Shown in pieces: positions 676-15,673 of a stretch of DNA of 64,000 nucleotides (position 1 is the stretch's first letter; each line of letters opens with the position of its first letter). The notes beneath the pieces are model-generated. The model did not search any database. It saw only the letters and a list, made by a program, of their open reading frames with translations, and was not told the origin of the DNA. This DNA comes from Ramlibacter agri (GTDB lineage Bacteria; Pseudomonadota; Gammaproteobacteria; Burkholderiales; Burkholderiaceae_C). The DNA is taken from positions 1,054,001-1,118,000 of the forward strand of contig NZ_JABBFX010000003.1 in the NCBI RefSeq assembly GCF_012927085.1. The letters are read 5' to 3'. The position numbers and the translations under genes were made by a program.

Positions 676-745
676 CCAAGCGTACGTTGAATGTCGCGAT
701 CAGCGACGATTCGGCCGCTCGGTCGCGCCTCTCGTAGGAGTGATC

Positions 746-1822
746 ATGGAACAGACTTCCTATAGCCTTCTGCATCGCGCCCCTCAGGCGGGGGCGTCGT
801 CGGGGCAGGGCGACGTGCCTTGCACCATCGCCATCGACGACGCGATCCAGCGCTATCTGACCTTCCGCGCGATGAAGGGCGGTACTGTGCAGAGCCTTTG
901 CGACCTGAGGCGCTACTTGAACGATTTCGCCAAGTGGGCCGTGCTGCTACATGTTGAAGATCTGGCCGGCCTGAACCCCGACCTTCTCAAGAAGTACCAG
1001 TGTTTCCTCTTCGAGTACCGGAAGCGTGACGGCCAGCCGCTCGCCACAGCCAGCAAACTTGCCAAGCTCGTTCCCTTGCGTGGCTGGTTGCGATGGCTGA
1101 CGACGCTGGGAGTCGCCGCGAACCTGGTGGACGCCATCGAACTGCCCGCCGCCGATCAGGCGTTGCCGCGGCGTTTGCTCTCGGCCGCGGAGATCGAGGC
1201 AGTCATGGCGATGCCGCGGACAGACACGCCGCTCGGGCTGCGCGATCGTGCGATGCTCGAGTTGCTGTACGCCACCGGAATCAGGCGCATGGAGATCGGC
1301 CAGTTGGACATCAACGACGTCGACCTGAGCCGCGCCATTCTCTGCGTGCGAAACGGGAAGGGGCGCAAGGACAGGCGCATTCCGATGGGGCCACGCGCGC
1401 AGCACTGGCTGGTGACGTATCTGGAACAAGGTCGGCCAGCCTTGTCGGGGGCCTCGAGCTCGCTGGCACTCTTTCCGGGCCGGGAGGGACCACGCCTCAA
1501 CATCAACTGGCTGTCCACGGTGATCTCAGGTTACGTGCGTCGCTCGGGTGTGGGTCGGGCTGGTGCGTGCCACTTGTTCCGGCATTCGATGGCGACCCTG
1601 ATGCTCGATGGCGGCGCCGATATCCGGTACATCCAGGCGATGCTGGGGCATGCGCAGTTGTCGACGACGCAGATCTACACGCACGTGTCGACGGCGCGGC
1701 TGGAGCAGGTTTACCTGGCGACGCATCCCGGAGCGAAGGGGTATGGTGCAGGTGGGAGCGTTGAGGGTGTGCGCGTGGAAAGCCGCGAACAGGAGGACGA
1801 GCTTTCGGTGTGGGTTGCGTAG
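746..1822 (+). CDS. Tyrosine recombinase / phage-type integrase
   Basis: The 358-residue product has an N-terminal SAM-like core-binding domain (about 25-125) and a C-terminal catalytic domain. The full tyrosine recombinase set is present: Arg180 (TGIRRMEI), Lys205 (GKGRKDRR), His276 and Arg279 (HLFRH), His302 (LGHAQ) and the nucleophile Tyr311 (TTQIYTHV). It should therefore be active in DNA strand exchange. I chose ATG 746 because TAGGAG lies 5 nt upstream; an open extension back to 557 lacks a ribosome site and overlaps the divergent gene. It is not XerC, which is at 40.6 kb. No flanking direct repeats or tRNA gene mark an integration boundary here, so whether it belongs to an island, a transposon or a solitary recombinase is open. 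Confidence 0.9.
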   Translation: MEQTSYSLLHRAPQAGASSGQGDVPCTIAIDDAIQRYLTFRAMKGGTVQSLCDLRRYLNDFAKWAVLLHVEDLAGLNPDLLKKYQCFLFEYRKRDGQPLATASKLAKLVPLRGWLRWLTTLGVAANLVDAIELPAADQALPRRLLSAAEIEAVMAMPRTDTPLGLRDRAMLELLYATGIRRMEIGQLDINDVDLSRAILCVRNGKGRKDRRIPMGPRAQHWLVTYLEQGRPALSGASSSLALFPGREGPRLNINWLSTVISGYVRRSGVGRAGACHLFRHSMATLMLDGGADIRYIQAMLGHAQLSTTQIYTHVSTARLEQVYLATHPGAKGYGAGGSVEGVRVESREQEDELSVWVA

Positions 1823-1860
1823 AGGCCGCAGGTGCGCGGCGTTTGGGGGCGTCCTCGCGC

Positions 1861-1882
1861 GGTGCGCAGCGAGCTGCGCACC
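1861..1882. repeat. Perfect palindrome after the recombinase gene
   Basis: A 9-bp perfect stem (GGTGCGCAG / CTGCGCACC) with a 4-nt loop lies between two convergent genes. There is no T-tract on either strand, so it is more like a REP-type intergenic palindrome than a classical terminator, though it may still block transcripts from both sides. Confidence 0.6.
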
Positions 1883-1959
1883 CTACGAGATGCATCGCGG
1901 AGCGGAAGCAGTAGCGAGCAGCCGCCAGAGCGAATCCTGGACCCGCCCATGAGCGCGAT

Positions 1960-3381
1960 TCAACCCACCCGCGAGAGCAAAGCCTTCACCGCTGCCCGGC
2001 TCTGCGCGCCCAGCTCCGCCACATCCAGGTTCGGCACGCGCCCATCGCGCACTACTTCCTTGCCGCCGACGAACAGGTAGCGCAGGTCCGCCGTGCCGCC
2101 GCTGGCCACCGGCCCGATCGCCGGATCGTGCAGGCCGAAGTAGCGCGGGTCGCGGTCGAGGCCGAAGATGGAGAAGTCCGCGGCCTGGCCGACCTCCAGC
2201 GTGCCGATGGCAGAGAGGCCCAGGACTTCGGCGCCACCTGCCGTGCCCCAGCGCACCACATCCTCCACGGTCGTCGAAGCCGCATCGCCTTCGCCCTTGC
2301 CGCCGCGGTAGTGCGCGACGGCCTCGTAGCCGCCCCGCGCACGCGCCATCAGCCATGCCGCATGCGTCTCCGACAGCATGTCCGCCGCCTCGTTGGACGC
2401 CGCGCCATCGACACCGATGGAGATCCGCGCCCCCGCTGCTTCCAGTGCGCGCACCGGCGCGATGCCGCTACCGAGGCGCCCATTGCTCTGCGGGCAATGC
2501 GCGATGCCAGTCCGCGTGCGCCCCAGCAAGGCGATCTCGTCCTCGTCCAGCTTCACCAGGTGCGCGAACCAGACATCCGGCCCCACCCAGTCGATGGTCT
2601 GGCAGAACTCGATGGGCTTCATCCGGTGCTTCTCCCACACTGTGTCGTGGTAGTGCACGGTCTCGGACAGGTGCGAATGCAGCATCAGCCCCAGCTCGCG
2701 CGCCACCTTCGCCGTCTCGCGCATTTCCTCGGGACGCATCGAGTGCGGCGGCGTCGTGGGCGCCATCACGACGCGCTGCGTCGCATCCGGCGACGGGTCG
2801 TGATAGAGCTTGGCCAGCCGGCGCATGTCGGCGAGATAGCCCTCCAGCGTCTCCGGGCGCGAGCCCGGTGCCGTGTCCTTGGTCTCCAGCCGCGTCAGCG
2901 TGCCGCCACCGCGGCACAGCACGAAGCGGATGCCCAGCTTCGCCGCTTCCTCGAACAGGATGGACGAACTGTCGTACGGCATGTCCGGGTAGTAGTGGTA
3001 GTTGTGGTCGGCCACCGTGCCGCAACCGGAAAGCACCAGCTCCAGCAGGCCGACGCGCGCGGCCAGCCGGAACTCGTGCTCGTTCATCAGCGGCCGCAGG
3101 CGCATCGGCGTGGCGGTCAGCCACGGCGTCAAGGTCGAATTCAGGCCCTGCGGATCGCCTTTCAGCAGCGACTGGAACAGGTGGTGGTGCGTGTTCACCC
3201 AGGACGGGTAGACCACGCAGCCGCTGGCATCGATCGTCCGCTCGCCCGGCTCGGGAGTGAGCGAACCGATGGCGGCGATCCTGCCATCGCGCACCCGCAG
3301 GTCGCTGCCGGCCGAACGCGCCTGCGCGCCCTTCAACCCGGTGAGGATGGCCGTGGCGTTGCGAATCAGCAGGCTGGTCAT
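1960..3381 (-). CDS. Amidohydrolase, 8-oxoguanine deaminase / chlorohydrolase type
   Basis: The 473-residue protein is a metal-dependent hydrolase of the cytosine-deaminase-like amidohydrolase superfamily (TrzN/AtzA/SsnA/8-oxoguanine deaminase group). The metal-binding NTHHHLFQS motif is at about 63-71. Further motifs are HSHLSET near the middle, the HCPQSNGRLG segment, and IGVDGAASNE, which carries the catalytic Asp. Such enzymes hydrolytically remove an amino group from a purine, pyrimidine or triazine ring in the cytoplasm. It is the last gene of the operon, and its ATG overlaps the stop of the Rieske gene (ATGA). The exact substrate cannot be read; the company of Rieske oxygenases and a THI5-type importer points to an N-heterocycle. 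Confidence 0.85.
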   Translation of the reverse strand: MTSLLIRNATAILTGLKGAQARSAGSDLRVRDGRIAAIGSLTPEPGERTIDASGCVVYPSWVNTHHHLFQSLLKGDPQGLNSTLTPWLTATPMRLRPLMNEHEFRLAARVGLLELVLSGCGTVADHNYHYYPDMPYDSSSILFEEAAKLGIRFVLCRGGGTLTRLETKDTAPGSRPETLEGYLADMRRLAKLYHDPSPDATQRVVMAPTTPPHSMRPEEMRETAKVARELGLMLHSHLSETVHYHDTVWEKHRMKPIEFCQTIDWVGPDVWFAHLVKLDEDEIALLGRTRTGIAHCPQSNGRLGSGIAPVRALEAAGARISIGVDGAASNEAADMLSETHAAWLMARARGGYEAVAHYRGGKGEGDAASTTVEDVVRWGTAGGAEVLGLSAIGTLEVGQAADFSIFGLDRDPRYFGLHDPAIGPVASGGTADLRYLFVGGKEVVRDGRVPNLDVAELGAQSRAAVKALLSRVG

Positions 3382-4430
3382 GCAGGCACCTTCTTGATGT
3401 TGATCACGTTGCCGCGATGCACTTCCTCTTCACCATGCGCGCGCAGCAGGTCCAGCAACTGCTTGCGGATCACGAGGCCGGGCTTGTCCGAGGCCATGTG
3501 GAATTCGACCTTGCGCGTGGTGTCGATGCACGCGTCGGGGTCCGTGGCTTCCAGGATGTCGCGGTCTTCGAGGGTGATGGCCTTGTCCCAGGCGATCAGT
3601 TCCTCGGTGCTGCACTGCTCCTCGGTGTCATTGCGGTACAGCCACTGCACCAGCATCATGCGGTCGTCGTCGATGGGCGTCGCGCAGTTGTAGATGATGT
3701 GGGCCCGGCCGCTGGCGGGGTAGGTGCAGCCGAAGCGCCGGCTGAAGGGCAGGTAGTAGCGGTTGACGAGGTGCCGGTGCGTGACCGGCTCGTCGGTGCC
3801 CGTGATGCGATAGCTCTCCTGCGGGTTCTTGATCGGCACCAGCGTCTCCGCCTCGAAGCCATAGTCGGTTTCGCGGAATTCGTAGGGCGCCGGTTTGGGC
3901 TGGTCGATCAGCCCGAAGTTCGCCTTGTGCACGAAGGAGAAGTGCGAGTTGTCGAAGGAGTTCTCCATCATGCGCAGCGGCGCCGTCTTCCATTCTTCGT
4001 AGAACTGGAAGATGCGGCGGTAGCCGGGCCGGCCGTCCTCGGGGAAATCGGGGATGGGCCGGATCGGGTCTTCCAGCGCCACCCACACGTAGCCGTACTT
4101 CTCCTGCGCGCGGTACGCCGGCACGCGGGCGTTGGGCGGGATGGGCGCTTCGGCCTGCTGCTGCGGGATCTTCACGCAGGCGCCGGTGCAGTCGTAGGTC
4201 CAGCCGTGGTAGCCGCAGGTGAGGTTGCCGTTCTCGACGAAACCTTTCGACAGCTTGGCGGTGCGGTGGCAGCAGCGGTCGGCGACGGCCGCGGGCGTGC
4301 CGTCGGCCTGCTTCCACAGCACGATGTCCTCGCCCATGAGGCGGAAGGGCTTGGGGCCTTCGTCCAGGAAGGACATGGGCATCAGCGCGTACCAGAAGCG
4401 GCGCAGGACTTTCTGTTGGGTGGTCAGCAT
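3378..4430 (-). CDS. Rieske non-heme iron oxygenase, first of two paralogues
   Basis: The 350-residue oxygenase subunit is of the VanA/PobA-like single-component class. The Rieske [2Fe-2S] ligands are Cys53/His55 and Cys72/His75 (DRCCHRTAK and CGYHGW). The mononuclear iron site begins with ENSFDNSHFSFVH, giving His163 and His168 plus the bridging Asp160. These enzymes insert oxygen into, or O-/N-demethylate, small ring compounds using electrons from a separate reductase. No reductase with a ferredoxin domain is encoded nearby; the flavodoxin-like protein at 11.9 kb is the only visible candidate donor. The gene overlaps its paralogue upstream by 7 nt. Confidence 0.9.
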   Translation of the reverse strand: MLTTQQKVLRRFWYALMPMSFLDEGPKPFRLMGEDIVLWKQADGTPAAVADRCCHRTAKLSKGFVENGNLTCGYHGWTYDCTGACVKIPQQQAEAPIPPNARVPAYRAQEKYGYVWVALEDPIRPIPDFPEDGRPGYRRIFQFYEEWKTAPLRMMENSFDNSHFSFVHKANFGLIDQPKPAPYEFRETDYGFEAETLVPIKNPQESYRITGTDEPVTHRHLVNRYYLPFSRRFGCTYPASGRAHIIYNCATPIDDDRMMLVQWLYRNDTEEQCSTEELIAWDKAITLEDRDILEATDPDACIDTTRKVEFHMASDKPGLVIRKQLLDLLRAHGEEEVHRGNVINIKKVPA

Positions 4431-5443
4431 GCTTCGTGTTCTCCGTGTTCTCCGTGTTCTTGCAGCAGCGCCAGCAGGCGCTTGCGCATCAGCAGGCCGG
4501 GGCGGTCCGAGGCCATGCTCTGTTCCTCCCGGCGGCTCACGTCCACCGGCGCGTTGGGGTCGACGCCGCGGTCCAGGATGTCCTTGTCCTCGGCGACCAC
4601 GCGCATGTCCCAGTCGTTCAGCAGGGCCGCGGGGCAGTCCTGCTCGCTGTCATTGCGGTACAGCCACTGGATCAACTGGATGCGGCCATCGTCGATGGGC
4701 GTGGCGCAGGTGTAGATCGTGTGGCGGATGCCGCTCGGGTAGGCCAGCCCCAGCTTGCGCAGGAAGGGCAGGTGCCACTGGTTGGAGAAGCTGCGCGTCG
4801 TCACCGGGTCGGTGGTGCCGGTGATGCGGTGCGACTCCGGCGGGTTGTTGATCTCCAGCAGCACGCGCGCCTCGAAGCCGTAGGCGGTCTCGTCCAGCGC
4901 GAAGTGCTTCGGCTTCGGCTGGTCGCCCTGGCCGAAGGTGCCGGCGTGGACGAAGGCGAAGTGCGCGGTGTCGAAGGAGTTTTCCATCAGCCGCAAGGCG
5001 CCGGTGTTCCAGGTCTCGTCGAACTGGTGGATGCGGCGGTGGCCCTGCGCTTCCTCCTCGGTTTCCAGCAGCGGCATCAGCGGGTCGTCCAGCGCCACCC
5101 AGGCGTAGCCGAAGCGCTCGGCGCAGTGGTAAGCCGGCACGCGGGCGCCGGGCGGGATGGCCTGCGTGTCCTGCTGCGGGATCTTCACGCAGGCGCCGCT
5201 GCAGTCGTACTGCCAGCCGTGGTAGCCGCAGGCGATGTGGTCGCCTTGTACGAAGCCTTTCGACAGCTTCGCGGTGCGGTGGCAGCAGCGGTCTTTCACC
5301 GCGGCAGGCTGGCCGTCGGTCTTCTTCCACAGCACGATGTCTTCGCCCAGCAGGGTGAAGGGCTGCGGGCCGGCAGCCAGCTTGGACATCGGCATGACGG
5401 CGTACCAGAAGCGCCGCAGCACGGGTTGCTTCGTGACCAGCAT
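4424..5443 (-). CDS. Rieske non-heme iron oxygenase, second of two paralogues
   Basis: The 339-residue protein is colinear with the downstream Rieske protein over its whole length. It has the same Cys53/His55 and Cys72/His75 ligands and the iron site MENSFDTAHFAFVH (His161, His166). The start ATG 5443-5441 shares one base with the stop of the binding-protein gene (TGATG); a longer frame reaching 6418 merely reads the binding-protein gene out of frame. The C-terminus ends in an EHG repeat created by a 9-bp tandem repeat. The pair looks like a local duplication that diverged. The two could form a hetero-oligomer or oxidise successive positions. Confidence 0.9.
   Translation of the reverse strand: MLVTKQPVLRRFWYAVMPMSKLAAGPQPFTLLGEDIVLWKKTDGQPAAVKDRCCHRTAKLSKGFVQGDHIACGYHGWQYDCSGACVKIPQQDTQAIPPGARVPAYHCAERFGYAWVALDDPLMPLLETEEEAQGHRRIHQFDETWNTGALRLMENSFDTAHFAFVHAGTFGQGDQPKPKHFALDETAYGFEARVLLEINNPPESHRITGTTDPVTTRSFSNQWHLPFLRKLGLAYPSGIRHTIYTCATPIDDGRIQLIQWLYRNDSEQDCPAALLNDWDMRVVAEDKDILDRGVDPNAPVDVSRREEQSMASDRPGLLMRKRLLALLQEHGEHGEHEAC
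4438..4464. repeat. Short 9-bp tandem repeat in the Rieske gene end
   Basis: Two exact copies and one imperfect copy of GTTCTCCGT lie at the 3' end of the upstream Rieske gene. On the minus strand they encode the Glu-His-Gly repeat at its C-terminus. The array touches the region where the two Rieske genes overlap. Confidence 0.7.
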
Positions 5444-6393
5444 CAGTGCGCCTTCAGGAAGTCCAGCGTGTAGGCTTGTTGCCAGTTGGCGTTGGGTTTC
5501 AACAGGCCGCTGGACACCATCAGCTCGTAGGTCTGCTTCCAGCGCGCGTCGGTCATCACGCCCGGGCCCTGCCTGGCGGCGTCGCCGCCGTCGAAGAAGT
5601 GCAGGGCGTTCATCTGCTTGACGCCGAAGGCGAGCGTGTCGTCGTCCATCTTCGGGTTGTCCTGCTTGATCAGGGCATTGCCCGGCGCCGGGTTGGCCAG
5701 GTAGCTCTTCCAGCCTTCCAGCGTGGCCTTGACGAAGCGCTGCACCAGTTCCGGCTTCTCCTTCACCGTCTTCTGCATCGCGACGATGGTGTTGCCGTAG
5801 GGCGGGTAGCCGTCGTCGGCGAACAGGAAGAAGTTGACCTTCTGGCCTTCCTTCTGCGCAGTGAAGGGCTCGGAGCCGGGGAAGCCCTGCTGCGCCACCT
5901 TGGGGTCGGCGAAGAAGGGCTGCAGGTTGAAGGTGTAGGGGCGGGTCTGTTCCGGCTTCAGCTTGTACTTGGCGGACAGCCAGGGCCACCAGCTGGTGTA
6001 GCCGCTCGAGGCGACCAGGATTGTCTTGTCCTTCAGGTCGGCGAGCCTGGTGACGTCGGCGTGCGTCATCATGCCTTGCGGATCCTTCTGGAACACCGCG
6101 GCCACCGTGACGGAGGGAATGCCTTGCTCCAGGCCGGACAGCACCTGGAAGTCCTTGCCCATGACGAAGTCGGCCTGGCCGGCGGCCAGCACCTGCATCA
6201 GGTTGACCTGGGGGCCGCCCATCTTGATGGCGACGTCGAGCCCGTACTTCTTGTAGATGCCGGTGGCCACGGCCTGGTAGTAGCCGCCGTGTTCGGCCTG
6301 GGCGTACCAGCTGGTGAGGAAAGTGACCTTGTCGTCGGCGTGCGCCAGCAAGGTGGCCGCCGCGAGGGCGATGGCAGTGAGTGCAGATTTCAT
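5443..6393 (-). CDS. ABC importer binding protein, NMT1/THI5 type (copy 1)
   Basis: The 316-residue periplasmic substrate-binding protein has an N-terminal signal peptide (cleavage likely after LLAHA). The mature part starts KVTFLTSWYAQAEHGGYYQA, the hallmark of the NMT1/THI5-like family, which binds pyrimidine-, taurine- or nitrate-like ligands. GGPQVNLMQVLAAGQADF forms the ligand pocket region. It is clearly paralogous to the protein at 9998-10978, including matching blocks (YAQAEHGG, GIYKKYGLDV, IKMGGPQVN, KATxEGWKSYL). It has no own permease next to it and probably shares the permease and ATPase at 8.4-10.0 kb. Confidence 0.9.
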   Translation of the reverse strand: MKSALTAIALAAATLLAHADDKVTFLTSWYAQAEHGGYYQAVATGIYKKYGLDVAIKMGGPQVNLMQVLAAGQADFVMGKDFQVLSGLEQGIPSVTVAAVFQKDPQGMMTHADVTRLADLKDKTILVASSGYTSWWPWLSAKYKLKPEQTRPYTFNLQPFFADPKVAQQGFPGSEPFTAQKEGQKVNFFLFADDGYPPYGNTIVAMQKTVKEKPELVQRFVKATLEGWKSYLANPAPGNALIKQDNPKMDDDTLAFGVKQMNALHFFDGGDAARQGPGVMTDARWKQTYELMVSSGLLKPNANWQQAYTLDFLKAH

Positions 6394-6480
6394 GGTGATT
6401 CTCCGGTTGGGAAAGCATTTGGAAAATCAGAGCAATGACCCGCGGCTTGCGCCGTTGCCTGCTTCTACTCTGCGCGGAAC

Positions 6481-6936
6481 TCAGGGGAGGTGGATCGTCG
6501 CCTCCACCTCGATGACTGCTGCGTCTCCAGGCATGAACCGTGCCACCTCCACCACCGTGCTGGCCGGCGGCTGGGTGGGGTAGAACAGGCCGCGGACGCG
6601 GTTGTAGAAGGGGTAATGGCGCAGGTCGCGGAAGTACTGCGCCAGCTTGATCGCCTGCTCCATGTCCGCACCGTGTTCGCGCGCGATGGTGCGGATGCGG
6701 TCCAGCACGAACCAGCTCTGGGCGACGATGGGCGCTTCGTAGATGTCCACCGTCATCTGGCCCGTGTCGTAGCCCAGTGTCTTCAACTGCTCGCGGGCGT
6801 GCGCGGGCAGTTCCTCGTAAGAAGAGACCACGGCCTTGCGCGCCGGGTCCACGGCCACCACGCCGCTGACGAACAGGAAGTCTCCTGCGCGCCTGGCCGC
6901 GGCGTAGTTGGCCATGGGTGTGCCCATTGCGCTCAT
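6481..6936 (-). CDS. Rid family protein (YjgF/UK114), lacking the RidA arginine
   Basis: The 151-residue protein has the Rid fold signatures LFVSGVVAVDP near 21-31 and VVEVARF...AVIEVEATI at the C-terminus. In true RidA enamine/imine deaminases the C-terminal motif reads ARSCVEVA, whose Arg holds the substrate carboxylate. Here the aligned stretch is ASTVVEVA, so that Arg is replaced. It therefore belongs with the non-RidA subgroups, whose members often sit in catabolic operons and hydrolyse or bind other intermediates. The start ATG 6936 overlaps the stop of the FAD oxidase gene (ATGA); longer frames upstream are out-of-frame readings of that gene. Confidence 0.85.
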   Translation of the reverse strand: MSAMGTPMANYAAARRAGDFLFVSGVVAVDPARKAVVSSYEELPAHAREQLKTLGYDTGQMTVDIYEAPIVAQSWFVLDRIRTIAREHGADMEQAIKLAQYFRDLRHYPFYNRVRGLFYPTQPPASTVVEVARFMPGDAAVIEVEATIHLP

Positions 6937-8285
6937 TGCCACGCCCGGGTCTTGCCGGGGTTCAACAGCTTCAACGGATCGAAGCGCCGCTTCACTTCGG
7001 AGACAGCAGGCGACAGCTCGCCGCCCGCCTTGCCGTCCTCGACGATGAACACGTGCGGATCGTTGATGCGGACACCGTTGTCGCGGTAGGTCTGCATGAT
7101 TTCCTGCAAGCGCTCCTCGGTCGAGAACTTCACGATCTGCAGCGCCGTGCAGGTCAGTTGGCCGTCCAGGCCGCGGATCCACTCGGCGTGCATTTGCACC
7201 TCGGGCGACAGCAGCTTTTCCATGTGCCGCACCTGCTGCAAATGCTGGCCCGGCACGAAAGCGCTTTGCAGGTAGGTGATGGTCTTGTCCACCTTGAAGG
7301 CCGCCAGCGTGGTGTGGTTCCACGTGTATTCCAGCAGGGTGCGGCCGGTGCGGGCGATTTCCTCGGCGTTCTTCGAGTACGTGACCTCGCCACGCCACTG
7401 CGCCGCCAGTTCGCGCACCGCCGCTTCGCTGGAGGGCGCAATGGCCAGGATGATCGCGTGGCAGCCGGGCGGCAGGTGCTCGCCATGGCCCCTGAGGTAG
7501 GCCGGGATCGGATCCGCCAGCAAAGCTACTTCACGCTTGACGATGCCGGGCCCACCGGCCACCGCATTGCCGAACTCCAGTGCGTCGTCGAAGGACGAGA
7601 ACACGACGAAGTGCTCCTGCCAGTCATAGGCAGGCGCCAGCGCCAGTTCCACTTCCAGCACCAGGCCGTTGGTGCCCCACAGGTGGTGCATCAGCAGCGC
7701 TTCCGGGCCGCGCAGTTCCACCACCTGCGGTTCTTCCTCGATGGTGAGGGCCTTGATGCCCAGCACGTTGCCGCGCGCCGCGAGCGGTCCGTAGTTGATG
7801 GAGCCGATGCCACCGAAGCCGCCGCCGAACAGGCCGCCCAGCGTGGCGCTGCGGTAGGTGGAGGGCATGCAGCGCAGTTCCATGCCGCAAGCCGCGCGCG
7901 TCTCGCGCTCCAGGTCGAACAGGCGGATTCCGGCCTGCGCCCGCGCCGCGCCGCCGCGCGCCCACAGGAACTGGTTGTAGCCGCTCATGTCCACCAGCAC
8001 GCCGCCTTGCAGCGGCACGGACTGGCCGTAGTTGCCGGTGCCGCTGCCGCGGATGGTGATGGGCAGGCGCAGCTTCGCGCACAGCGCCACCAGCTGCTTG
8101 ACCTCGTCTTCGTTGCGCGGGCGGACGACGGCGTCGGCGGCCTTGCCGGCCAGTTGCCGCTTCAGCACCGGGCTGAACCAGGAGAAGTCCTGCGACAGGC
8201 GGGCGATGCGGGCGGAGTCGGTCACCCAGTCCAGGTCGGGCAGGGCGATCTGCAGTTGTTCGATGGAGGAAACAGGTGCGTTCAT
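6933..8285 (-). CDS. FAD-binding oxidoreductase, GlcD / PCMH-type
   Basis: The 450-residue flavoprotein has an FAD_binding_4 (PCMH/VAO-type) domain at about 40-215. ITIRGSGTGNYGQSVP and the glycine-rich ATLGGLFGGGFGGIGS bind the FAD pyrophosphate. The C-terminal half ends with RRFDPLKLLNPGKT, the conserved end of D-lactate/glycolate-oxidase-like enzymes. It would oxidise a hydroxy acid or an alcohol-like intermediate in the cytoplasm. There is no iron-sulfur domain. It follows a 115-bp gap with a palindromic repeat after the permease gene and couples by ATGA overlap to the Rid gene. Confidence 0.85.
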   Translation of the reverse strand: MNAPVSSIEQLQIALPDLDWVTDSARIARLSQDFSWFSPVLKRQLAGKAADAVVRPRNEDEVKQLVALCAKLRLPITIRGSGTGNYGQSVPLQGGVLVDMSGYNQFLWARGGAARAQAGIRLFDLERETRAACGMELRCMPSTYRSATLGGLFGGGFGGIGSINYGPLAARGNVLGIKALTIEEEPQVVELRGPEALLMHHLWGTNGLVLEVELALAPAYDWQEHFVVFSSFDDALEFGNAVAGGPGIVKREVALLADPIPAYLRGHGEHLPPGCHAIILAIAPSSEAAVRELAAQWRGEVTYSKNAEEIARTGRTLLEYTWNHTTLAAFKVDKTITYLQSAFVPGQHLQQVRHMEKLLSPEVQMHAEWIRGLDGQLTCTALQIVKFSTEERLQEIMQTYRDNGVRINDPHVFIVEDGKAGGELSPAVSEVKRRFDPLKLLNPGKTRAWQ

Positions 8286-8350
8286 GGTGCTTCAGGTCGG
8301 CCGGGCTTGTTCGCGGGCCACCGCGGAACCGGCTTTGCCGGGCCGCTGGT

Positions 8351-8391
8351 GGCGCCCCCTTGAGGGGGAAGCGCCGAAGGCGCTTCGGGGG
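8351..8391. repeat. Composite palindromic intergenic repeat (REP-like)
   Basis: Two adjacent hairpins fill the only sizeable gap inside the operon. The first is CCCCCT/AGGGGG with a TG loop (8355-8368). The second is AAGCGCC/GGCGCTT around GAA (8369-8385), followed by a G-rich tail. I recognise this kind of double palindrome from other Comamonadaceae intergenic regions, but cannot search for copies. It may attenuate expression between the transport and enzyme halves of the operon. Confidence 0.6.
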
Positions 8392-8400
8392 TGGGCCATA

Positions 8401-9183
8401 TCAATCACGGGAGAGCTCGCTTGCGTGCCAGGAGCCGAGGGCGATCTTCGACAGCCACGCCATCAGCACGAACAGGCCGACGCCGGTGAGCGAAATCAGC
8501 AGCAGGGCCGCGAACATGCGCGGGATGTTCAGCTGGTAGCCGGCAAAGAGGATCTGGTAGGCCAGGCCGGTGCTGGTGCCGCCGGTGCCGGCCACGAACT
8601 CCGCCACCACGGCGCCGATCAGCGCCAGGCCGCTGGAGATGCGCAGCCCGCCGAAGAAGTAGGGCAGCGCGCTCGGGATCCGCAGGCGCAGCAGGGTCTG
8701 CGCGCGGCTGGCCCGGTTCATGGCGAAGTAGCTTTGCAGGTCAGGGTCGATGCTGCGCAGCCCCAAGGTGGTGTTGCTGATGATGGGGAACAGCGCCACC
8801 AGGGTCGCGCAGATCACCAGCGAGGCCGTCGGGTTCTTGACCCAGATGATGATCAGCGGCGCCACCGCCACGATGGGCGTTACCTGCAGCAGCACGGCGT
8901 AGGGGAACAGCGCGGTCTCCACCTGCCGGCTCTGCACGAACAGGAAGGAGACCAGCACGCCCACCACCACCGCGGTCAGGAAGGACAGCAGCGTGATCTT
9001 CAGCGTGAACAGCAGCGACAGGCCCAGCGGCTGCCAGTCGGTCACCAGCGTCTGCAGCATCAGGATGGGCGAGGGCACCAGGTAGGGCGGCAGCTTGAAG
9101 CCGGTGACGAGGCCCTGCCAGACCGTCAGCAGGATGACGGCGACGATGGCCGGATAGAGCACCTTGGCGGTATGCGGCTTCAT
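8401..9183 (-). CDS. ABC transporter permease (SsuC/TauC/ThiX-like)
   Basis: The 260-residue membrane protein has about six hydrophobic segments and the BPD_transp_1 domain. The EAA loop region reads RASRAQTLLRLRIPSALPYFFGGLRIS, ending in the usual ALPYFFxGL motif. It is the permease of the NMT1/THI5-type importer. The start ATG 9183 overlaps the stop of the ATPase gene (ATGA). The longer frame extending to 9426 is the ATPase gene read in a wrong frame. Confidence 0.9.
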   Translation of the reverse strand: MKPHTAKVLYPAIVAVILLTVWQGLVTGFKLPPYLVPSPILMLQTLVTDWQPLGLSLLFTLKITLLSFLTAVVVGVLVSFLFVQSRQVETALFPYAVLLQVTPIVAVAPLIIIWVKNPTASLVICATLVALFPIISNTTLGLRSIDPDLQSYFAMNRASRAQTLLRLRIPSALPYFFGGLRISSGLALIGAVVAEFVAGTGGTSTGLAYQILFAGYQLNIPRMFAALLLISLTGVGLFVLMAWLSKIALGSWHASELSRD

Positions 9184-9998
9184 GACAGCGCCTCCTCGTC
9201 GTTCTCCTGGCTGGCGCGCAGCAGGCTGTCCTGCAAATGCTTGGCGTACTGCGCGAAGCGCGGCGTCACCATGAAGTCCGGCGTGCGCGGGTAGGGCTCG
9301 TCGATGGTCACCTGCTCCACGATGCGTCCCGGCCGCGCGGCCATCATCACCACCTTGTTCGACAGGTACACCGCCTCGTGGATCGAGTGCGTCACGAAGA
9401 TCACCGTCAGCTTCTTGCTGCGCCACAGCTCCAGCAGGTCGCTATCGAGCTTGTGGCGGGTGATCTCGTCCAGCGCGCCGAAGGGCTCGTCCATCAGCAG
9501 CAGCTGCGGCTGCACCACCAGGCTGCGGGCGATGGACACCCGCATCTGCATGCCGCCCGACAGGTTGCGCGGCAAGGCCTTGGCGAACTTCGCCAGGCCC
9601 ACCAGCGCCAGCGCGTCGGCGACGCGCGGCGCCGCTTCGGCGCGCGGCACGCCGGCCAGGTCCAGCGGCAGCCGCACGTTGCTTTCCACGCTGGCCCAGG
9701 GCATCAGCGTGGGCGCCTGGAAGACGAAAGCCATCTTCTTGCCGGCTTCCTCCAGTTGCGCCACGGGCTTGCGCCACAGCAGCAGGCGGCCGTCGGTGGG
9801 CTCCAGCAGGCCGGCCACCATCTTCAGCAAGGTGCTCTTGCCGCAGCCCGAGGGACCGAGCAGCGTGATGAACTCGCCTTCCTGGATGGCCAGGTCCACC
9901 GGCTGCAGGGCGACGGTGCCATTGGGGTAGGTCTTGTGCGCCGACAGAACCTCCACCGCGGGTGGAGATTCGACCAGCACGGAAGGGGGTTCGCGCAT
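9180..9998 (-). CDS. ABC transporter ATP-binding protein (SsuB/TauB-like)
   Basis: The 272-residue ATPase of the importer has Walker A GPSGCGKST at about 48-56, Q-loop VFQAPTLMPW, signature LSGGMQMRVSIAR, Walker B LLLMDEPFGALD and H-loop FVTHSIHEA. The WASVxSNVRLPL spacing is typical of the taurine/nitrate/pyrimidine-precursor ATPases. The start is ATG 9998, which shares one base with the stop of the upstream binding-protein gene; a GTG one codon earlier is an alternative. Confidence 0.93.
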   Translation of the reverse strand: MREPPSVLVESPPAVEVLSAHKTYPNGTVALQPVDLAIQEGEFITLLGPSGCGKSTLLKMVAGLLEPTDGRLLLWRKPVAQLEEAGKKMAFVFQAPTLMPWASVESNVRLPLDLAGVPRAEAAPRVADALALVGLAKFAKALPRNLSGGMQMRVSIARSLVVQPQLLLMDEPFGALDEITRHKLDSDLLELWRSKKLTVIFVTHSIHEAVYLSNKVVMMAARPGRIVEQVTIDEPYPRTPDFMVTPRFAQYAKHLQDSLLRASQENDEEALS

Positions 9999-10978
9999 CA
10001 CGGCAGCACCTTGGCGTCGCGGGCAAAGGAGAAGTCGTAGGCGTCGGCGGTCGACACCTTGCCCGGCTCGATCAGCTTGTTATCGAGCAGGAACTTGAAG
10101 TTGGCGGCGACGCGCTTGTCGTCCATCGTGCCGAGGCCCGCCTTGGCGGCTTCGCCGCTGCTGACGATGCCCATCTCCTTGAGCTTCTGCACGCTGTACG
10201 CGAGCTGCTCGTCGGTCATGTTCGGGTTGTCCTTCTTGATCAGCGCGTTGGCGGGCGCCGGGTCGGCCAGGTAGCTCTTCCAGCCTTCCATCGTCGCCTT
10301 CACGAAGGAAGCGACGGCGGCCTTGCGCTGCTTCACCGTGGTGTCCATGCAGGTGATGGTGGTGGCGTAGGAGGTCCAGCCCTGGTCGGCGAACAGGTGC
10401 GCCTTCGCCTTGACGCCGGCCTTCTGGATGGCGAAGGGCTCGCTCGTGAGGTAGCCCTGCTGCACGGCGTTCTTGTCCGCCACGAAGGGCTGGATGTTGA
10501 AGGTGTAGGGGCGCGTCTGGGCGTCGGTGAAACCGTACTTCTGCTTCAGCCACAGCCAGTAGCCGCGCTGCGCGGTCGGCGCGATGAGGATGGTCTTGTC
10601 CTTCATCTGCTCGAAGCCGGCGACGTCGTCGTGCGAGATCAGGACCTGCGGGTCCTTCTGGAACACCGCGGCGACGGTGGTGACGGGCAGGCCGCCGGCG
10701 CGGGTGATGACGGCCTGCATGTCGCTGCTGCCCATGACGCAGTCGGTCTGGCCGGCGGCCATCAGCTGGTAGATGTTGACCTGCGGGCCGCCCATCTTGA
10801 TGGTGACGTCCAGGCCGTACTTCTTGTAGATGCCGGTGGCCACCGCCTGGTAGAAGCCGCCGTGTTCGGCCTGCGCGTACCAGTTGGTCATGTACGTGAA
10901 CTTCTCTTCGGCGTGGGCGCCGGCGCAGAGGGCCAGCGTGGCGGCGGCGAACAGGGTGCGGGAGAACAGGTTCTTCAT
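9998..10978 (-). CDS. ABC importer binding protein, NMT1/THI5 type (copy 2)
   Basis: The 326-residue periplasmic protein has a clear signal peptide (MKNLFSRTLFAAATLALCAG) and mature start EEKFTYMTNWYAQAEHGGFY. It is paralogous to the protein at 5443-6393. It sits immediately before the ATPase and permease genes, so it is the primary binding protein of this importer. Two receptors for one translocator would broaden the ligand range, for example parent compound and partly degraded product. Confidence 0.9.
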   Translation of the reverse strand: MKNLFSRTLFAAATLALCAGAHAEEKFTYMTNWYAQAEHGGFYQAVATGIYKKYGLDVTIKMGGPQVNIYQLMAAGQTDCVMGSSDMQAVITRAGGLPVTTVAAVFQKDPQVLISHDDVAGFEQMKDKTILIAPTAQRGYWLWLKQKYGFTDAQTRPYTFNIQPFVADKNAVQQGYLTSEPFAIQKAGVKAKAHLFADQGWTSYATTITCMDTTVKQRKAAVASFVKATMEGWKSYLADPAPANALIKKDNPNMTDEQLAYSVQKLKEMGIVSSGEAAKAGLGTMDDKRVAANFKFLLDNKLIEPGKVSTADAYDFSFARDAKVLP

Positions 10979-11028
10979 GGCTACCTCGAATGGAATGGGT
11001 GGGAGGGCTGTTGCAAGTTGCGCGCCGG

Positions 11029-11886
11029 TCAGTGGGTGCCGCTTTCGATGTGCCCGCGCTGGTGCCCGTGGCCCCAGGAAGCGACATCGCGCACCACCCA
11101 CTGCATGCGGTACAGGTCGGTGATGGCCTGCACCCAGCTGTCGGAGAGCGTGTCCAGGATTTCCTTGCCTTGTTCCGGCGTGGCGCCGAACGGGTCGCCG
11201 ATGACGCCGCTGGGGCCGAAGTCGCGCGCCGTCCAGGCGCAGGCGGGGCGGCCGTCCTGCGACAGCAGCTTGCTGGGGAACACCGGCGGGAAGTTCTTCA
11301 CCGCGCGCTCCATGTGCACCGTTTCGGGGGCCAGCGCCATCATCAGCGCCGTTTCGGAGTGGCCGGCGTGCATGGCCAGCTTCTTCTCCTGCTCGCTCAC
11401 GTACTTGCCGCTGGCATTGGGCAGGCGCGAGACGTGGAAGGGCACGATGACGAAGTCGCCGTGGCGGATGCGCAGCTCGCGCGCCGCCATCTCCAGCACC
11501 TGCGGCTGGCCGCCGTGGCCGTTGGGGAGCAGCAGCTTGCGAAAGCCGGCGCGATACACCGACTCGCCGATCTCCTGCACCACGTTCAGCAGCGTGGTCC
11601 CGGTCAGGGTCATGGTGCCGGGGAAGTGCAGGTGCTCGTCGCTCTTGCCGTAGGTGATGGGCGCCATGCCGAAGGCGCGCACGTCGGCGGGCAGCTTCTC
11701 CAGCGCCTTGCCGATCACGCCGGCGGAAATGACGCTGTCGACCGCGCAGGGCAGGTGCGGGCCGTGCTGCTCGATGGCGCCGACCGGCAGCACGATGACC
11801 GTGTTCTCGCGGTCGGGCAGCGCGTTGATCTCCGTCCAGCTCAGGTAAGGCAGGAAGCGGTGCGGGGGGATGTAGCCGTGCATCAT
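11029..11886 (-). CDS. Creatininase-family amidohydrolase
   Basis: The 285-residue protein is of the creatinine amidohydrolase fold. The metal-binding motif IEQHGPHLP is at about 38-46 (Glu, His), with Asp in CAVDSVIS, the glycine-rich NGHGGQ, and a second acidic/His site HAGHSET. Family members hydrolyse cyclic amides, N-formyl groups or peptide-like bonds; mycofactocin and riboflavin/F420 pathway enzymes also belong here. In this operon it is a plausible ring-opening hydrolase. Two consecutive ATG codons start the gene; the upstream one is used here. Confidence 0.88.
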   Translation of the reverse strand: MMHGYIPPHRFLPYLSWTEINALPDRENTVIVLPVGAIEQHGPHLPCAVDSVISAGVIGKALEKLPADVRAFGMAPITYGKSDEHLHFPGTMTLTGTTLLNVVQEIGESVYRAGFRKLLLPNGHGGQPQVLEMAARELRIRHGDFVIVPFHVSRLPNASGKYVSEQEKKLAMHAGHSETALMMALAPETVHMERAVKNFPPVFPSKLLSQDGRPACAWTARDFGPSGVIGDPFGATPEQGKEILDTLSDSWVQAITDLYRMQWVVRDVASWGHGHQRGHIESGTH

Positions 11887-11904
11887 GGTTTGCGGTCCTC
11901 TGTC

Positions 11905-12492
11905 TCAGGCAAAGCGGGCCATCGCCTCGGCCACGCGGCGCTTGAATTGCGCGAGGCGCGGCTCGGTGGCGACGTTCATGTGGTAGTACGCGTGGTAGTC
12001 GGCGCGGGCGCGGTTGCCGGTGAGGCGGCGCAGGTAGCGCGTGACCATCTTGCGCGGCGGGTCGCCCATGTACCAGGCCATCCAGCGCGGCCGGCCGTAG
12101 GTGACCACGGCCGAGATGCGCTTGATGTGCGTGAGCATGGGCTTGACGTCGGCGGGGTCGCTGATGTCGAAGGCCACGCCGGGCATGAAGAGGCGGTCGA
12201 AGAAGCCTTTCAGCATGGCCGGCAGGCCGAAGCACCAGGTGGGAAAGCAGAAGACCAGGGCTTCGGCGCGTTGCAGGCGGATCACGTACTCCTGCATGGG
12301 CGCGCGGTTGCGGGGCACGTCGTGGTAGCCCAGCCGCTCCGTGCGCGACATCACCGGGTTGAAGCCTTCGGCGTAAAGGTCGCAGTCGTCGACCTCGTGG
12401 CCGGCGGCGCGCAGGTTGCGCAGCACTTCCTGGTGCAGCGCCGAGCCGAAGCTGGTTTCGACCGGGTGGCAGTAGACGACGAGGACGCGCAT
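11905..12492 (-). CDS. NAD(P)H-dependent flavin oxidoreductase (Flavodoxin_2 fold)
   Basis: The 195-residue protein is of the NQO1/KefF/MdaB type. It starts MRVLVVYCHPVETSFGSAL, the FMN/FAD-binding loop, has the FCFPTWCFGLPAMLKGFFDR motif near 80-100 and ends with a helical tail. It would reduce flavin or quinone with NAD(P)H and might feed electrons to the Rieske oxygenases, which otherwise lack a partner in the operon. It is the first gene after the operator, so its promoter probably drives everything down to 1960. Confidence 0.85.
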   Translation of the reverse strand: MRVLVVYCHPVETSFGSALHQEVLRNLRAAGHEVDDCDLYAEGFNPVMSRTERLGYHDVPRNRAPMQEYVIRLQRAEALVFCFPTWCFGLPAMLKGFFDRLFMPGVAFDISDPADVKPMLTHIKRISAVVTYGRPRWMAWYMGDPPRKMVTRYLRRLTGNRARADYHAYYHMNVATEPRLAQFKRRVAEAMARFA

Positions 12493-12564
12493 GGTGCGGT
12501 TGTCCTCAGGCGTGCACCGCTTTGGCGCGGCGGGAGTCGTTGGCGGCAGTTTGGTGCTTCATCC

Positions 12565-12591
12565 TGACCAATCAATTTGATCGATTGGTCA
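12565..12591. promoter_or_regulatory. Inverted-repeat operator of the catabolic operon
   Basis: TGACCAATC and its perfect reverse complement GATTGGTCA flank a 9-nt spacer in the gap between the TetR gene and the operon. On the minus strand the right arm contains TTGACC, a possible -35 element, so a bound repressor would block the operon promoter. The half-site TTGACCA/TGGTCAA is the same as in the E. coli RutR box as I remember it, but the arms are further apart here. Confidence 0.7.
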
Positions 12592-12621
12592 AGTTCAGCA
12601 AGGGGCATGCCAGCCCCGGGG

Positions 12622-13263
12622 TTATTCGATGCCGCAGCCCCGCAGCACGAAGGCCGTCAGCTCTTCCACCAGTGCGTCCGGCGCCGGCGTCCAGCCGGGC
12701 TGCCGGGGTTGCCGCAGCTGCTGCACCTGCAGCGCCGAATCGGCATAGAACTGGGTCATGGCCCAGATGGAGAACAGCAAGGTGTGGGCGTCCACCGGCT
12801 GCATCAGGCCGCGGGCGATCCAGCCGTTGATGGCGTCCACCTTGTTACGCGTGCGCAGCTGCGCGTCGGGCCAGAACTTTTGCAGGTAAGGGCCGCCATC
12901 GAGCACCTCGCGGGTGAAGATGCGCGAGATCTCCGGCTTGTCGAACGCGAGCCGCACCTTGGCGCGGACGTAGTCGCCCAGGACCCGGCCGGGGTCGGTG
13001 GAGCCGGCATCGAACATGTCGCGCCAGTCCGCCACCACCGACATCAGGAGCTCCTCGTAGAGTTCCTCCTTGCCGCGGATGTAGTAGTGCAGCTGCGGCT
13101 TGGTGAGGCCGGCCCGCTCGGCGATGGCCTGGGTGGAGGTGCCGCTCAGGCCTTTCTCGCTGAACTCCGCGATGGCCGCCGCGCGGATGGCCGCCAGTAC
13201 GCGTTCGCGGTTCTGGCGCGGGTTGCGGGGGGCAACAGCTTCGGCCTGCTTCATGGGGCGCAT
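12622..13263 (-). CDS. TetR-family regulator, RutR (YcdC)-like
   Basis: The 213-residue protein has an N-terminal helix-turn-helix at about 38-60 (GTSTQAIAERAGLTKPQLHYYI). Its C-terminal ligand domain has the features of the YcdC/RutR group (FTREVLDGGPYL and IWAMTQFYADSALQ). RutR of E. coli senses uracil or thymine and controls pyrimidine catabolism. This one lies just upstream of, and in the same direction as, the catabolic operon, with the inverted repeat in between, so it most likely represses it until a ring compound binds. It begins only 22 nt after the permease gene at 13286. Confidence 0.88.
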   Translation of the reverse strand: MRPMKQAEAVAPRNPRQNRERVLAAIRAAAIAEFSEKGLSGTSTQAIAERAGLTKPQLHYYIRGKEELYEELLMSVVADWRDMFDAGSTDPGRVLGDYVRAKVRLAFDKPEISRIFTREVLDGGPYLQKFWPDAQLRTRNKVDAINGWIARGLMQPVDAHTLLFSIWAMTQFYADSALQVQQLRQPRQPGWTPAPDALVEELTAFVLRGCGIE

Positions 13264-13285
13264 GCTAGCAGCCGCGCCGGCACGC

Positions 13286-14374
13286 TTATTTGCCCGGCGT
13301 CACGGATTGCTGCTGCCGCACGCTGGCCAGCATCTCCCAGCTGACCAGGAACACCGCCGCGATCACGGGCCCGATGACGAAGCCATTGAGGCCGAACACC
13401 ACGATGCCGCCCAAGGTGGCGACCAGCACCAGGTAGTCCGGCATGCGGGTGTCCTTGCCGACCAGGATGGGGCGCAGCACGTTGTCGACCAGGCCGATGA
13501 CGATGCCGCCCCAGACGATGAGGCCCACGCCTTTGACGATCTCGCCGGTGAAGAGATAGAACAGCGCCACCGGTCCCCACACCAGCGCCGCGCCCACGGC
13601 CGGCAGCAGGGACAGCAGCGCCATCATCGCGCCCCACAGCACGGCCCCCGGCAGCCCGAGGACCCAGAAGGCCAGCGCGCCCAGGACGCCCTGCACCAGC
13701 GCGACGGCGATGTTGCCCTTGACGGTGGCGCGCACGACGATGGCGAACTGCTGCAGCAGCCGGCGCGTGTGCTGCGCGTCCAGCGGGATCGCGCGCGCGA
13801 TGCTCTGCGACAGGCGCTCGCCGTCGCGGAACAGGAAGAACAGCACGTAGAGCATCAGGAAGAAGCCGACCACGAAGTTCATCGTCACCTGGCCGATGCC
13901 GACCACGCGCGAGGTCACCTCCTGCGTGCTGTTGCCCAGCGTCGCCATCACCTTTTCCTGCAGCAGGCCGAGGTCGCCCATGCCGAAGCGCAGCAGGACG
14001 GCCTGCAGCCACCGCGGCAGCGCGTGCACCATGCGCTGGTAGTAGGCGCCGATCTCGATCTGGCCGGTGCGCAGCTTCTCGACCAGCACCGAGGCTTCCT
14101 GCGTGATGTTGGCCGCGATCATGGCCAGCGGCAGGATCACGATGATGAGGATCACCGTCAGCGACGCGGCCGCCGCCATGTTCTGCTTGCCGTGGCTGCC
14201 CTGCAGGAAGCGCTGGTGCAGCGGCCAGAACACGATGGCGATGAAGACCGACCAGCAGACGGCGCCGAAGAAGGGCCAGATGATCAGCGCGAACAGCACG
14301 GTGGCGATGCACACCAGCGCGAGCAGCGACTTGAACTCCAGCTCCGGCGTGCGGAGCGGGTTGGGAGAGGGCAT
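13286..14374 (-). CDS. AI-2E transporter family (PerM/TqsA-like) membrane protein
   Basis: The 362-residue integral membrane protein has paired hydrophobic segments at the N-terminus (about 15-50), one near 70-90, and a cluster in the C-terminal half. The conserved GxIVIGLVDNVLRPILVG block near 300 and the PDYLVLVATLGGI segment define the AI-2E/UPF0118 family. Proposed roles range from signal or ion export to general permease; no specific substrate can be assigned. Its start region abuts the terminator of the liv operon, so its promoter must overlap that sequence. Confidence 0.88.
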   Translation of the reverse strand: MPSPNPLRTPELEFKSLLALVCIATVLFALIIWPFFGAVCWSVFIAIVFWPLHQRFLQGSHGKQNMAAAASLTVILIIVILPLAMIAANITQEASVLVEKLRTGQIEIGAYYQRMVHALPRWLQAVLLRFGMGDLGLLQEKVMATLGNSTQEVTSRVVGIGQVTMNFVVGFFLMLYVLFFLFRDGERLSQSIARAIPLDAQHTRRLLQQFAIVVRATVKGNIAVALVQGVLGALAFWVLGLPGAVLWGAMMALLSLLPAVGAALVWGPVALFYLFTGEIVKGVGLIVWGGIVIGLVDNVLRPILVGKDTRMPDYLVLVATLGGIVVFGLNGFVIGPVIAAVFLVSWEMLASVRQQQSVTPGK

Positions 14375-14391
14375 CCACCAAGCCTACCAAC

Positions 14392-14415
14392 AAAAAGGCC
14401 GCCCATGGGGCGGCC
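14392..14415 (-). terminator. Rho-independent terminator of the liv operon
   Basis: On the minus strand an 8-bp perfect stem GGCCGCCC/GGGCGGCC with a 3-nt loop is followed directly by TTTTT. It lies about 20 nt after the stop of the binding-protein gene at 14434. Confidence 0.9.
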
Positions 14416-14433
14416 AGCGGTGCATGCCGGTGC

Positions 14434-15603: not shown

Positions 15604-15673
15604 GGCGGTCTCCTTGCAGGATGGCCTGAGTTGGGGGGATTCTTGCCGGGGTGCCGCCCGGCTCCATGCGTGT

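Follow-up and report, generated by a model that had tools for sequence, protein, structure and literature searches.

We analysed a stretch of 64,000 nucleotides (nt) from the 7.2 Mb genome of Ramlibacter agri (G000:C3:1054001-1118000; hereafter the window), in which an operon of 12 genes, all on the minus strand and spanning positions 13263 down to 1960, is associated with a xanthine riboswitch and a candidate operator, and which we consider here as a candidate for pterin catabolism. Families of the operon proteins were called with Pfam and NCBIfam, using the NCBIfam cut-offs, and the families, gene order, riboswitch, candidate operator and conservation described below were read from the sequence. 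The features are:

12622-13263, minus strand: TetR-family regulator, RutR-like (TetR_N and TetR_C_3, YcdC-type C-terminal domain; Pfam)
12564-12591: candidate TetR operator, an inverted repeat between the regulator and the first operon gene
11905-12492, minus strand: Flavodoxin_2/quinone-reductase-like protein (NQO; Pfam, under the NCBIfam cut-offs)
11029-11886, minus strand: creatininase-family hydrolase (PF02633, 238 bits; under the creatininase cut-off)
9998-10978, minus strand: NMT1/THI5-type substrate-binding protein 1 (receptor 1; Pfam)
9180-9998, minus strand: ATP-binding cassette (ABC) ATPase (Pfam)
8401-9183, minus strand: ABC permease (Pfam)
6933-8285, minus strand: flavin adenine dinucleotide (FAD)-dependent oxygenase/oxidase (FAD_binding_4)
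6481-6936, minus strand: Rid-family enamine/imine hydrolase (PF01042)
6425-6475, minus strand: xanthine (NMT1) riboswitch aptamer RF03054 (Rfam)
5443-6393, minus strand: NMT1/THI5-type substrate-binding protein 2 (receptor 2; Pfam)
4424-5443, minus strand: Rieske oxygenase 2 (Rieske and VanA_C; Pfam)
3378-4430, minus strand: Rieske oxygenase 1 (Rieske and VanA_C; Pfam)
1960-3381, minus strand: isoxanthopterin/pterin-deaminase-type amidohydrolase (PRK12393; NF009059)

Six neighbouring gene pairs overlap (3378/3381, 4424/4430, 5443, 6933/6936, 9180/9183 and 9998), and the remaining five intergenic gaps measure 129, 18, 50, 115 and 87 nt. We divide the locus into module 1 (13263-6481), with the RutR-like regulator, flavodoxin-fold reductase, creatininase homologue, importer, FAD enzyme and Rid protein, and module 2 (6475-1960), with the riboswitch, receptor 2, Rieske 2, Rieske 1 and the amidohydrolase. 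All the genes named in an initial annotation of this DNA are indeed present on the minus strand within this span, but its gene list overlooked the Flavodoxin_2 gene and the riboswitch. No sigma-70-like promoters were found within 1800-13500.

Enzymes of the operon

The amidohydrolase scores 711 bits against NF009059 (PRK12393; cut-off 543), a model named only 'amidohydrolase family protein', and 381 bits against NF006055 (8-oxoguanine deaminase), below the cut-off of 532. Among solved structures it is closest to 2paj (627 bits) and then to 3hpa (265 bits), which we take to be of the 8-oxoguanine-deaminase type; identity is 61% to 2paj (468 residues), 39% to 3hpa and 37% to 7ww2. The Gln, Tyr and two Thr of the 2paj pocket, presumably its pterin contacts, are all kept in the alignment (HHLFQ, ADHNY, RGGGT and APTT), and both Thr are absent from 3hpa and 7ww2. 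Of the 49 rows from outside the Protein Data Bank (PDB), the window protein included (the rows of surveyed loci L009 and L090 represent the same contig), 45 keep the first Thr, the exceptions being L053, L054, L098 and the second copy in L086. The initial annotation had described a purine-deaminase-type amidohydrolase; deamination is retained, but the enzyme's place is beside 2paj and not among the 8-oxoguanine-deaminase type. We take 2paj to be the isoxanthopterin deaminase Sgx9339a of Hall et al. (2010). One review credits Hall 2010 with the isoxanthopterin deaminase, and a second states that Hall's Sargasso Sea amidohydrolases deaminate isoxanthopterin and pterin-6-carboxylate.

In a FastTree phylogeny of surveyed and other deaminases, the clade containing 2paj and the window protein comprises 17 tips (support 0.74), and, 2paj aside, 13 of its 16 tips have a riboswitch. 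The closest surveyed orthologues of 2paj, those of L040 (90%) and L039 (83%), are found in operons with the order riboswitch, receptor, Rieske, ATPase, permease and deaminase. Deaminase homologues from two other branches stand alongside a Xan_ur permease in L085, L087, L088 and L098, with a UbiD decarboxylase close by in L087 and L098 and Bmp receptors in L087 and L088; these Xan_ur/UbiD loci could encode a route through decarboxylation of pterin-6-carboxylate or xanthine-8-carboxylate. L098 also carries guanidine-I and guanidine-II riboswitches (13248-13346 and 17869-17916) less than 9 kb from its deaminase homologue.

The nearest structure to the FAD enzyme is 6v42, titled as a flavin oxygenase involved in folate catabolism, with 37% identity and a common fold along the entire length. 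The named genomes in which the nearest relatives of this gene are encoded are Ramlibacter and Caenimonas. Judged by homology, the amidohydrolase and the FAD enzyme thus independently point to pterins.

Rieske 1 and Rieske 2 share 60% identity, the next best-scoring Rieske protein of the genome reaching 29%. The best PDB matches of Rieske 1 are SxtDIOX (126 bits), SxtT (122), NdmA (119) and NdmB (91). HpxD is not favoured as its identity, with only 30% identity to the sole hpxD-annotated record among the 25 matches listed of 562.

The weak PDB matches of receptor 1 include THI5, THI13 and a formyl-aminopyrimidine-binding protein. The creatininase homologue belongs to a family that includes enzymes cleaving cyclic amides and formamido-pyrimidines; at 101.5 bits it falls far below the creatininase cut-off (TIGR04448, 235 bits), so that the earlier label 'creatininase' cannot be kept, and it also scores under the cut-off of MftE (137 against 172 bits). 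RutR-like regulation, also proposed in the initial annotation, is retained for the TetR protein, but neither it nor the Rid protein reaches the equivalog level: the TetR protein scores 117 bits against RutR (TIGR03613, cut-off 368), and the Rid protein 37 bits against RutC (TIGR03610, cut-off 169).

The riboswitch and the candidate operator

The riboswitch lies in the 87-nt gap ahead of receptor 2, where RF03054 matches 6475-6425 on the minus strand over model positions 1-56 of 56 with 42 bits (gathering 36, E 2.1e-6). A genome-wide scan, with strict filters by which weak matches can be lost, lists no second copy; a Rfam match at 3468-3555 (Retro_dr1, 25.7 bits, gathering 42) was put down to chance. 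We aligned 21 of 22 sites, omitting the weakest (L093:10666-10735). The alignment has 19 invariant columns, and standard pairs make up 90.9% of the pair cells, compared with 34-50% in slid controls. Nine of the 12 pairs change on both sides somewhere, which 35 of 500 shuffles also reach, and the covariation score of 0.526 is reached by none of the 500. Columns 17-58 form G-C or U-A in all sequences, and columns 18-57 form G-U, U-A or C-G and are unpaired in 3 of the 21. These P2a pairs (columns 17-18 with 57-58) vary by operon group (UA/UA, GC/UA, GC/CG and GC/GU), and possibly mark ligand or host subtypes. The Shine-Dalgarno-like GGAG of receptor 2 lies inside a predicted hairpin right after the aptamer, a fold that is no better than shuffles (z -0.32).

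Xanthine turns this riboswitch class off (Yu and Breaker, 2020; PMC7373994), and the genes linked to it encode NMT1/THI5 receptors, 2-oxoglutarate (2OG) and Rieske oxygenases, PRK12393 amidohydrolases and, rarely, tadA (PMC7373994). The same authors read the regulon as purine oxidation and called the use of the monitored xanthine 'currently not readily apparent'; isoxanthopterin is among the compounds bought for their study (PMC7373994). The riboswitch binds xanthine at 3.6-4.4 uM and urate at 20 uM, and its structure exposes the ligand to solvent at position C8 alone (PMC8266621).

Between the TetR gene and the first operon gene lies the inverted repeat TGACCAAT...ATTGGTCA, within the region CTGACCAATCAATTTGATCGATTGGTCA (plus strand, 12564-12591). 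Its TGACCA/TGGTCA halves resemble the RutR box. With up to three mismatches, the repeat is also found between the TetR gene and the next gene in L001, L004, L007, L008, L010 and L078; among the 23 sources scanned, three-mismatch matches at unrelated places occur in L006 and L099, and 20 control windows (398 kb) contain none. From this conserved TetR-adjacent repeat, module 1 probably answers to the RutR-like repressor, with module 2 probably under additional control by xanthine.

Conservation of the gene set

A search with the FAD protein recovered ten loci, L001-L010. All twelve genes are present in unchanged order in L001 and L004, and all except TetR in L003; L010 keeps the order in broken pieces, and L002 and L005 have the portion fitting on their contigs. 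In L006, L007 and L008, genes of module 1 occur but Rieske and deaminase genes do not; L009 has a different order, with a 2OG gene. In the 21-kb Hydrogenophaga stretches L007 and L008, module 1 is accompanied by a VanB-type reductase and a cytosine-deaminase-like amidohydrolase, and L007 has hydantoinase-B upstream.

Upstream of the window operon, on the same strand (13286-18330), are genes for an AI-2E transporter, a branched-chain-type receptor, an AMP-binding enzyme and an ABC ATPase. The transporter and receptor also lie upstream in L001, L003 and L010 and were not found there in L004, and the operon border is therefore probably at the TetR gene. At the other end, a phage-integrase-family recombinase gene (window 557-1822, plus strand) faces the operon.

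At E <= 1e-100, and counting the window's own genome each time, the amidohydrolase was found in 18 of 399 order genomes, 18 of 299 family genomes and 10 of 398 phylum genomes. We collected 41 deaminase neighbourhoods, some of them short contigs, representing 39 further genomes; the order sample supplied 19 of them (three in a single genome), the family sample 17 and the phylum search another 5. Applying fixed score cut-offs, these contain a receptor in 27 cases, ATPase in 26, permease in 26, Rieske in 15, FAD enzyme in 11, 2OG in 10, flavodoxin-fold protein in 10, creatininase homologue in 8, Rid in 5 and TetR in 3; each of these families is absent from 20 control windows (398 kb) drawn from 20 of those genomes. 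The search for co-occurrence proposed in the initial annotation thus finds members of the set with the deaminase beyond chance, a given member being present in up to 27 of the 41 deaminase loci as against none in the 20 control windows. A riboswitch is present at 13 of the 41 loci, 12 by Rfam and L045 by our own model only, with L090 counted through L009; on the control windows, the model gave a single 20-bit match (L201) and nothing stronger. In the family sample (299 genomes), 56 genomes have the riboswitch, 18 the deaminase and 11 both (Fisher odds 8.2, p 4.5e-5, uncorrected for relatedness); in three of these 11 (G399, G506 and G537) no riboswitch lies within 9 kb of the deaminase.

We also drew 20 loci (L151-L170) from the 45 family genomes with riboswitch and without deaminase. 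Ten have a Rieske-1 homologue (54-59%), ten a 2OG gene and L162 both, L168 having a short Rieske match. Six TadA-like proteins from these loci were scanned, and all are nearest to TadA and under its cut-off. A cluster matching the urease accessory protein UreD (one member tested) is present in 7 of the 20 loci, and the xanthine riboswitches there often occur as divergent pairs adjoining receptor genes.

Outside Burkholderiales, the best matches to the deaminase in a plasmid collection are from Klebsiella (four records, two of ~120 kb and the others of 1.0 Mb and 5.4 Mb), Rahnella and Pantoea. In Klebsiella pneumoniae L176 and Rahnella L178, the genes run importer, creatininase homologue, RidA, an amidohydrolase 45-48% identical to the cytosine-deaminase-like one of L007, VanB-type reductase, a LysR gene, and then receptor, PRK12393 and 2OG oxygenase. 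Identity of L176 to the window is 62% for the deaminase, 64% for the creatininase homologue, 70% for the ATPase, 49% for Rid, and 50% and 58% for the receptors, and that of L178 is 60%, 65% and 71% for the first three. The FAD gene adjoins the importer in K. pneumoniae L177 and L182, where several genes are unannotated, and the L182 enzyme is 56% identical to that of the window. A riboswitch precedes the receptor and PRK12393 genes in L176, L177 and L178, and divergent pairs occur in Pantoea L179 and L181. We therefore regard the gene set as an old, mobile or repeatedly kept unit rather than a local accident.

Proposed function and comparison with known systems

Overall, the operon is probably a two-module unit for the catabolism of pterins (folate fragments) under riboswitch control. 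This agrees in part with the initial annotation, which had proposed catabolism of an N-heterocycle through a two-receptor importer, oxygenation and deamination, and had listed pterins among the candidates. For the substrate, the order of steps and the cellular ligand of the riboswitch we infer the following scheme. Receptors 1 and 2 would share the single ATPase-permease pair and import pterins. The Rieske enzymes would hydroxylate the pyrazine ring, converting pterin to isoxanthopterin or violapterin to tetraoxypteridine, or might oxidise a side chain, and the deaminase would remove the 2-amino group to give a lumazine. The flavin oxygenase would then oxidise the deaminated ring, Rid would hydrolyse imine or enamine intermediates, the creatininase homologue might cleave an exposed lactam or oxamoyl amide, and the flavodoxin-fold enzyme might reduce quinone-like pyrimidines. 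At high levels of a 2,4-dioxo product (xanthine or a look-alike), the riboswitch would stop module 2 at translation.

The Alcaligenes route known from biochemistry of the 1960s runs through isoxanthopterin, violapterin, tetraoxypteridine, xanthine-8-carboxylate and xanthine, and such feedback would make sense because this route would end at the ligand of the riboswitch. We tentatively suggest, without counting it as likely, that the NMT1 'xanthine' riboswitch is, at least in this clade, a feedback sensor of pterin catabolism, where either pterins undergo ring contraction to xanthine or xanthine mimics, at micromolar affinity, a lumazine that is the native ligand. To our knowledge, no gene is assigned to the cycloisomerase (Enzyme Commission number EC 5.5.1.3) of this route through tetraoxypteridine and xanthine-8-carboxylate; if the riboswitch is such a sensor, the operon would hold genes for these orphan steps. 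Soils and guts receive pterins from folates, biopterin and animal pigments, and we know of few genes assigned to the breaking of the pteridine ring. The cluster, kept from Comamonadaceae to Klebsiella, provides candidate genes for oxygenating, deaminating, oxidising and opening the ring, and pterin catabolism would be a concrete and testable answer to the puzzle of Yu and Breaker over the use of the monitored xanthine (PMC7373994).

Several observations weigh against pterins as substrate. The link from pterin to xanthine depends on the 1960s biochemistry. An identity of 37% and a common fold do not fix the substrate of the FAD enzyme, and no publication of their own was found for 6v42/6v43 in the open-licence literature. 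The window riboswitch, alone among the 21 aligned, has an A.C mismatch at the P2b base, and the known ligands of the class are purines (PMC7373994, PMC8266621). A riboswitch is missing from 28 of the 41 deaminase loci, a Rieske gene from 26 and the FAD enzyme from 30; conversely, 45 of the 56 riboswitch genomes of the family sample have no deaminase at E <= 1e-100. All 20 deaminase-free riboswitch loci contain a Rieske or 2OG gene, and 14 contain a member of the TadA-like cluster, and these gene sets fit the oxidation of purines or methylpurines to xanthine as well. In addition, the operon has no Rieske reductase. We sought a partner in an orphan VanB-type reductase and found none: apart from one weak match, the three clear matches in the genome (G000 C2:531981, C1:2730194 and C3:584285) all lie beside other Rieske genes, none being an obvious partner, and the window Rieske enzymes must therefore borrow their reductase.

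Because the deaminase-free loci fit purine oxidation too, the catabolism of N-methylguanines from RNA or DNA turnover has to be weighed, and we consider it unlikely. Here, Rieske N-demethylases and a guanine-type deaminase would yield xanthine in two steps. The matches of Rieske 1 include the methylxanthine demethylases NdmA and NdmB, and one riboswitch-linked 2OG enzyme elsewhere is nearest to thymine dioxygenase, which oxidises the methyl group of a base. The small operons L039, L040 and L083 contain receptor, Rieske, importer and deaminase, with no module-1 enzymes at the cut-offs used, which is enough for a two-step route, and its product xanthine is what shuts the riboswitch off (PMC7373994). 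However, NdmA is one of several equally distant relatives of Rieske 1 (SxtDIOX and SxtT score as high, and hpxD stands at 30%), the deaminase is 61% identical to 2paj with a pocket unlike the 8-oxoguanine-deaminase type, and the operon also encodes the FAD enzyme, which points to folate catabolism.

A smaller chance belongs to two unrelated adjacent modules, with module 2 acting on a purine or pterin and module 1 on another compound, such as a hydantoin or creatinine-like lactam. Each module has its own receptor, and the riboswitch precedes module 2 only; module 1 stands without deaminase in the Hydrogenophaga loci, with hydantoinase-B upstream in L007, and the FAD enzyme and creatininase homologue are missing from 30 and 33 of the 41 deaminase loci, respectively. 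Yet the modules adjoin in both Burkholderiales and Enterobacterales, and L162 joins a riboswitch-linked Rieske gene to module 1. We regard as very improbable a conversion of guanine to urate by Rieske C8 hydroxylation followed by deamination of 8-oxoguanine to uric acid: urate does bind the riboswitch, ~seven-fold weaker than xanthine (PMC8266621), and NF006055 gives 381 bits, but this score is under the cut-off of that model while PRK12393 is above its own, and neither pocket Thr is shared with 3hpa or 7ww2. A Rut- or creatininase-type pathway for pyrimidines or creatinine deserves almost no credence: a RutR-like regulator, a Rid protein and a creatininase-family member are present, but the scores against RutR, RutC and creatininase all fall far short of the equivalog cut-offs, and the riboswitch and deaminase indicate a bicyclic ring. 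Creatinine, uracil and 8-oxoguanine were rejected as substrates on such equivalog or model cut-offs, and homarine catabolism, an initial idea, was not retained.

The deaminase, the flavin oxygenase and the riboswitch-Rieske-PRK12393 association are each known singly, and no publication joining the three was found in the open-licence literature. The statement of the initial annotation that no characterised pathway has exactly this set therefore holds within that literature, but two enzymes have relatives tied to pterin or folate catabolism, and the link of riboswitch, PRK12393 and Rieske is published (PMC7373994). Of the set terms sought in PMC13054789, PMC12828455 and PMC6186785, the only one found was a lone mention of '8-oxoguanine', with no bearing on pterins.

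Among known systems, the Rut pyrimidine pathway shares a RutR-like regulator and a Rid protein with the operon, but the equivalog cut-offs are missed and, by Pfam and NCBIfam, none of the 12 genes is of the RutA, RutB or RutD type. HpxD and NdmA/NdmB are likewise Rieske oxygenases acting on purines, with ~30% identity to the annotated hpxD; by sequence, Rieske 1 is about equally far from both and is not a clear orthologue of either. The flavin oxygenase 6v42 differs from the FAD enzyme in that 37% identity leaves room for another substrate. Hall et al. reportedly described the deaminase alone in 2010. The window amidohydrolase resembles that protein (2paj) in its 61% identity and common pocket residues, and the 83-90% orthologues of 2paj share importer, Rieske and riboswitch. 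Folic acid degradation in Variovorax sp. F1, a member of the same bacterial family, also involves deamination of the pterin ring, but that pathway uses carboxypeptidase G and an Arad3529-type deaminase, the accessible portion of that paper mentioning no such operon (PMC9513972). The xanthine/NMT1 riboswitch class of PMC7373994 is alike in its aptamer, the downstream NMT1 receptors, the Rieske or 2OG oxygenases and PRK12393, and differs in that it was read there as a regulon of purine oxidation, whereas two enzymes suggest pterins here.

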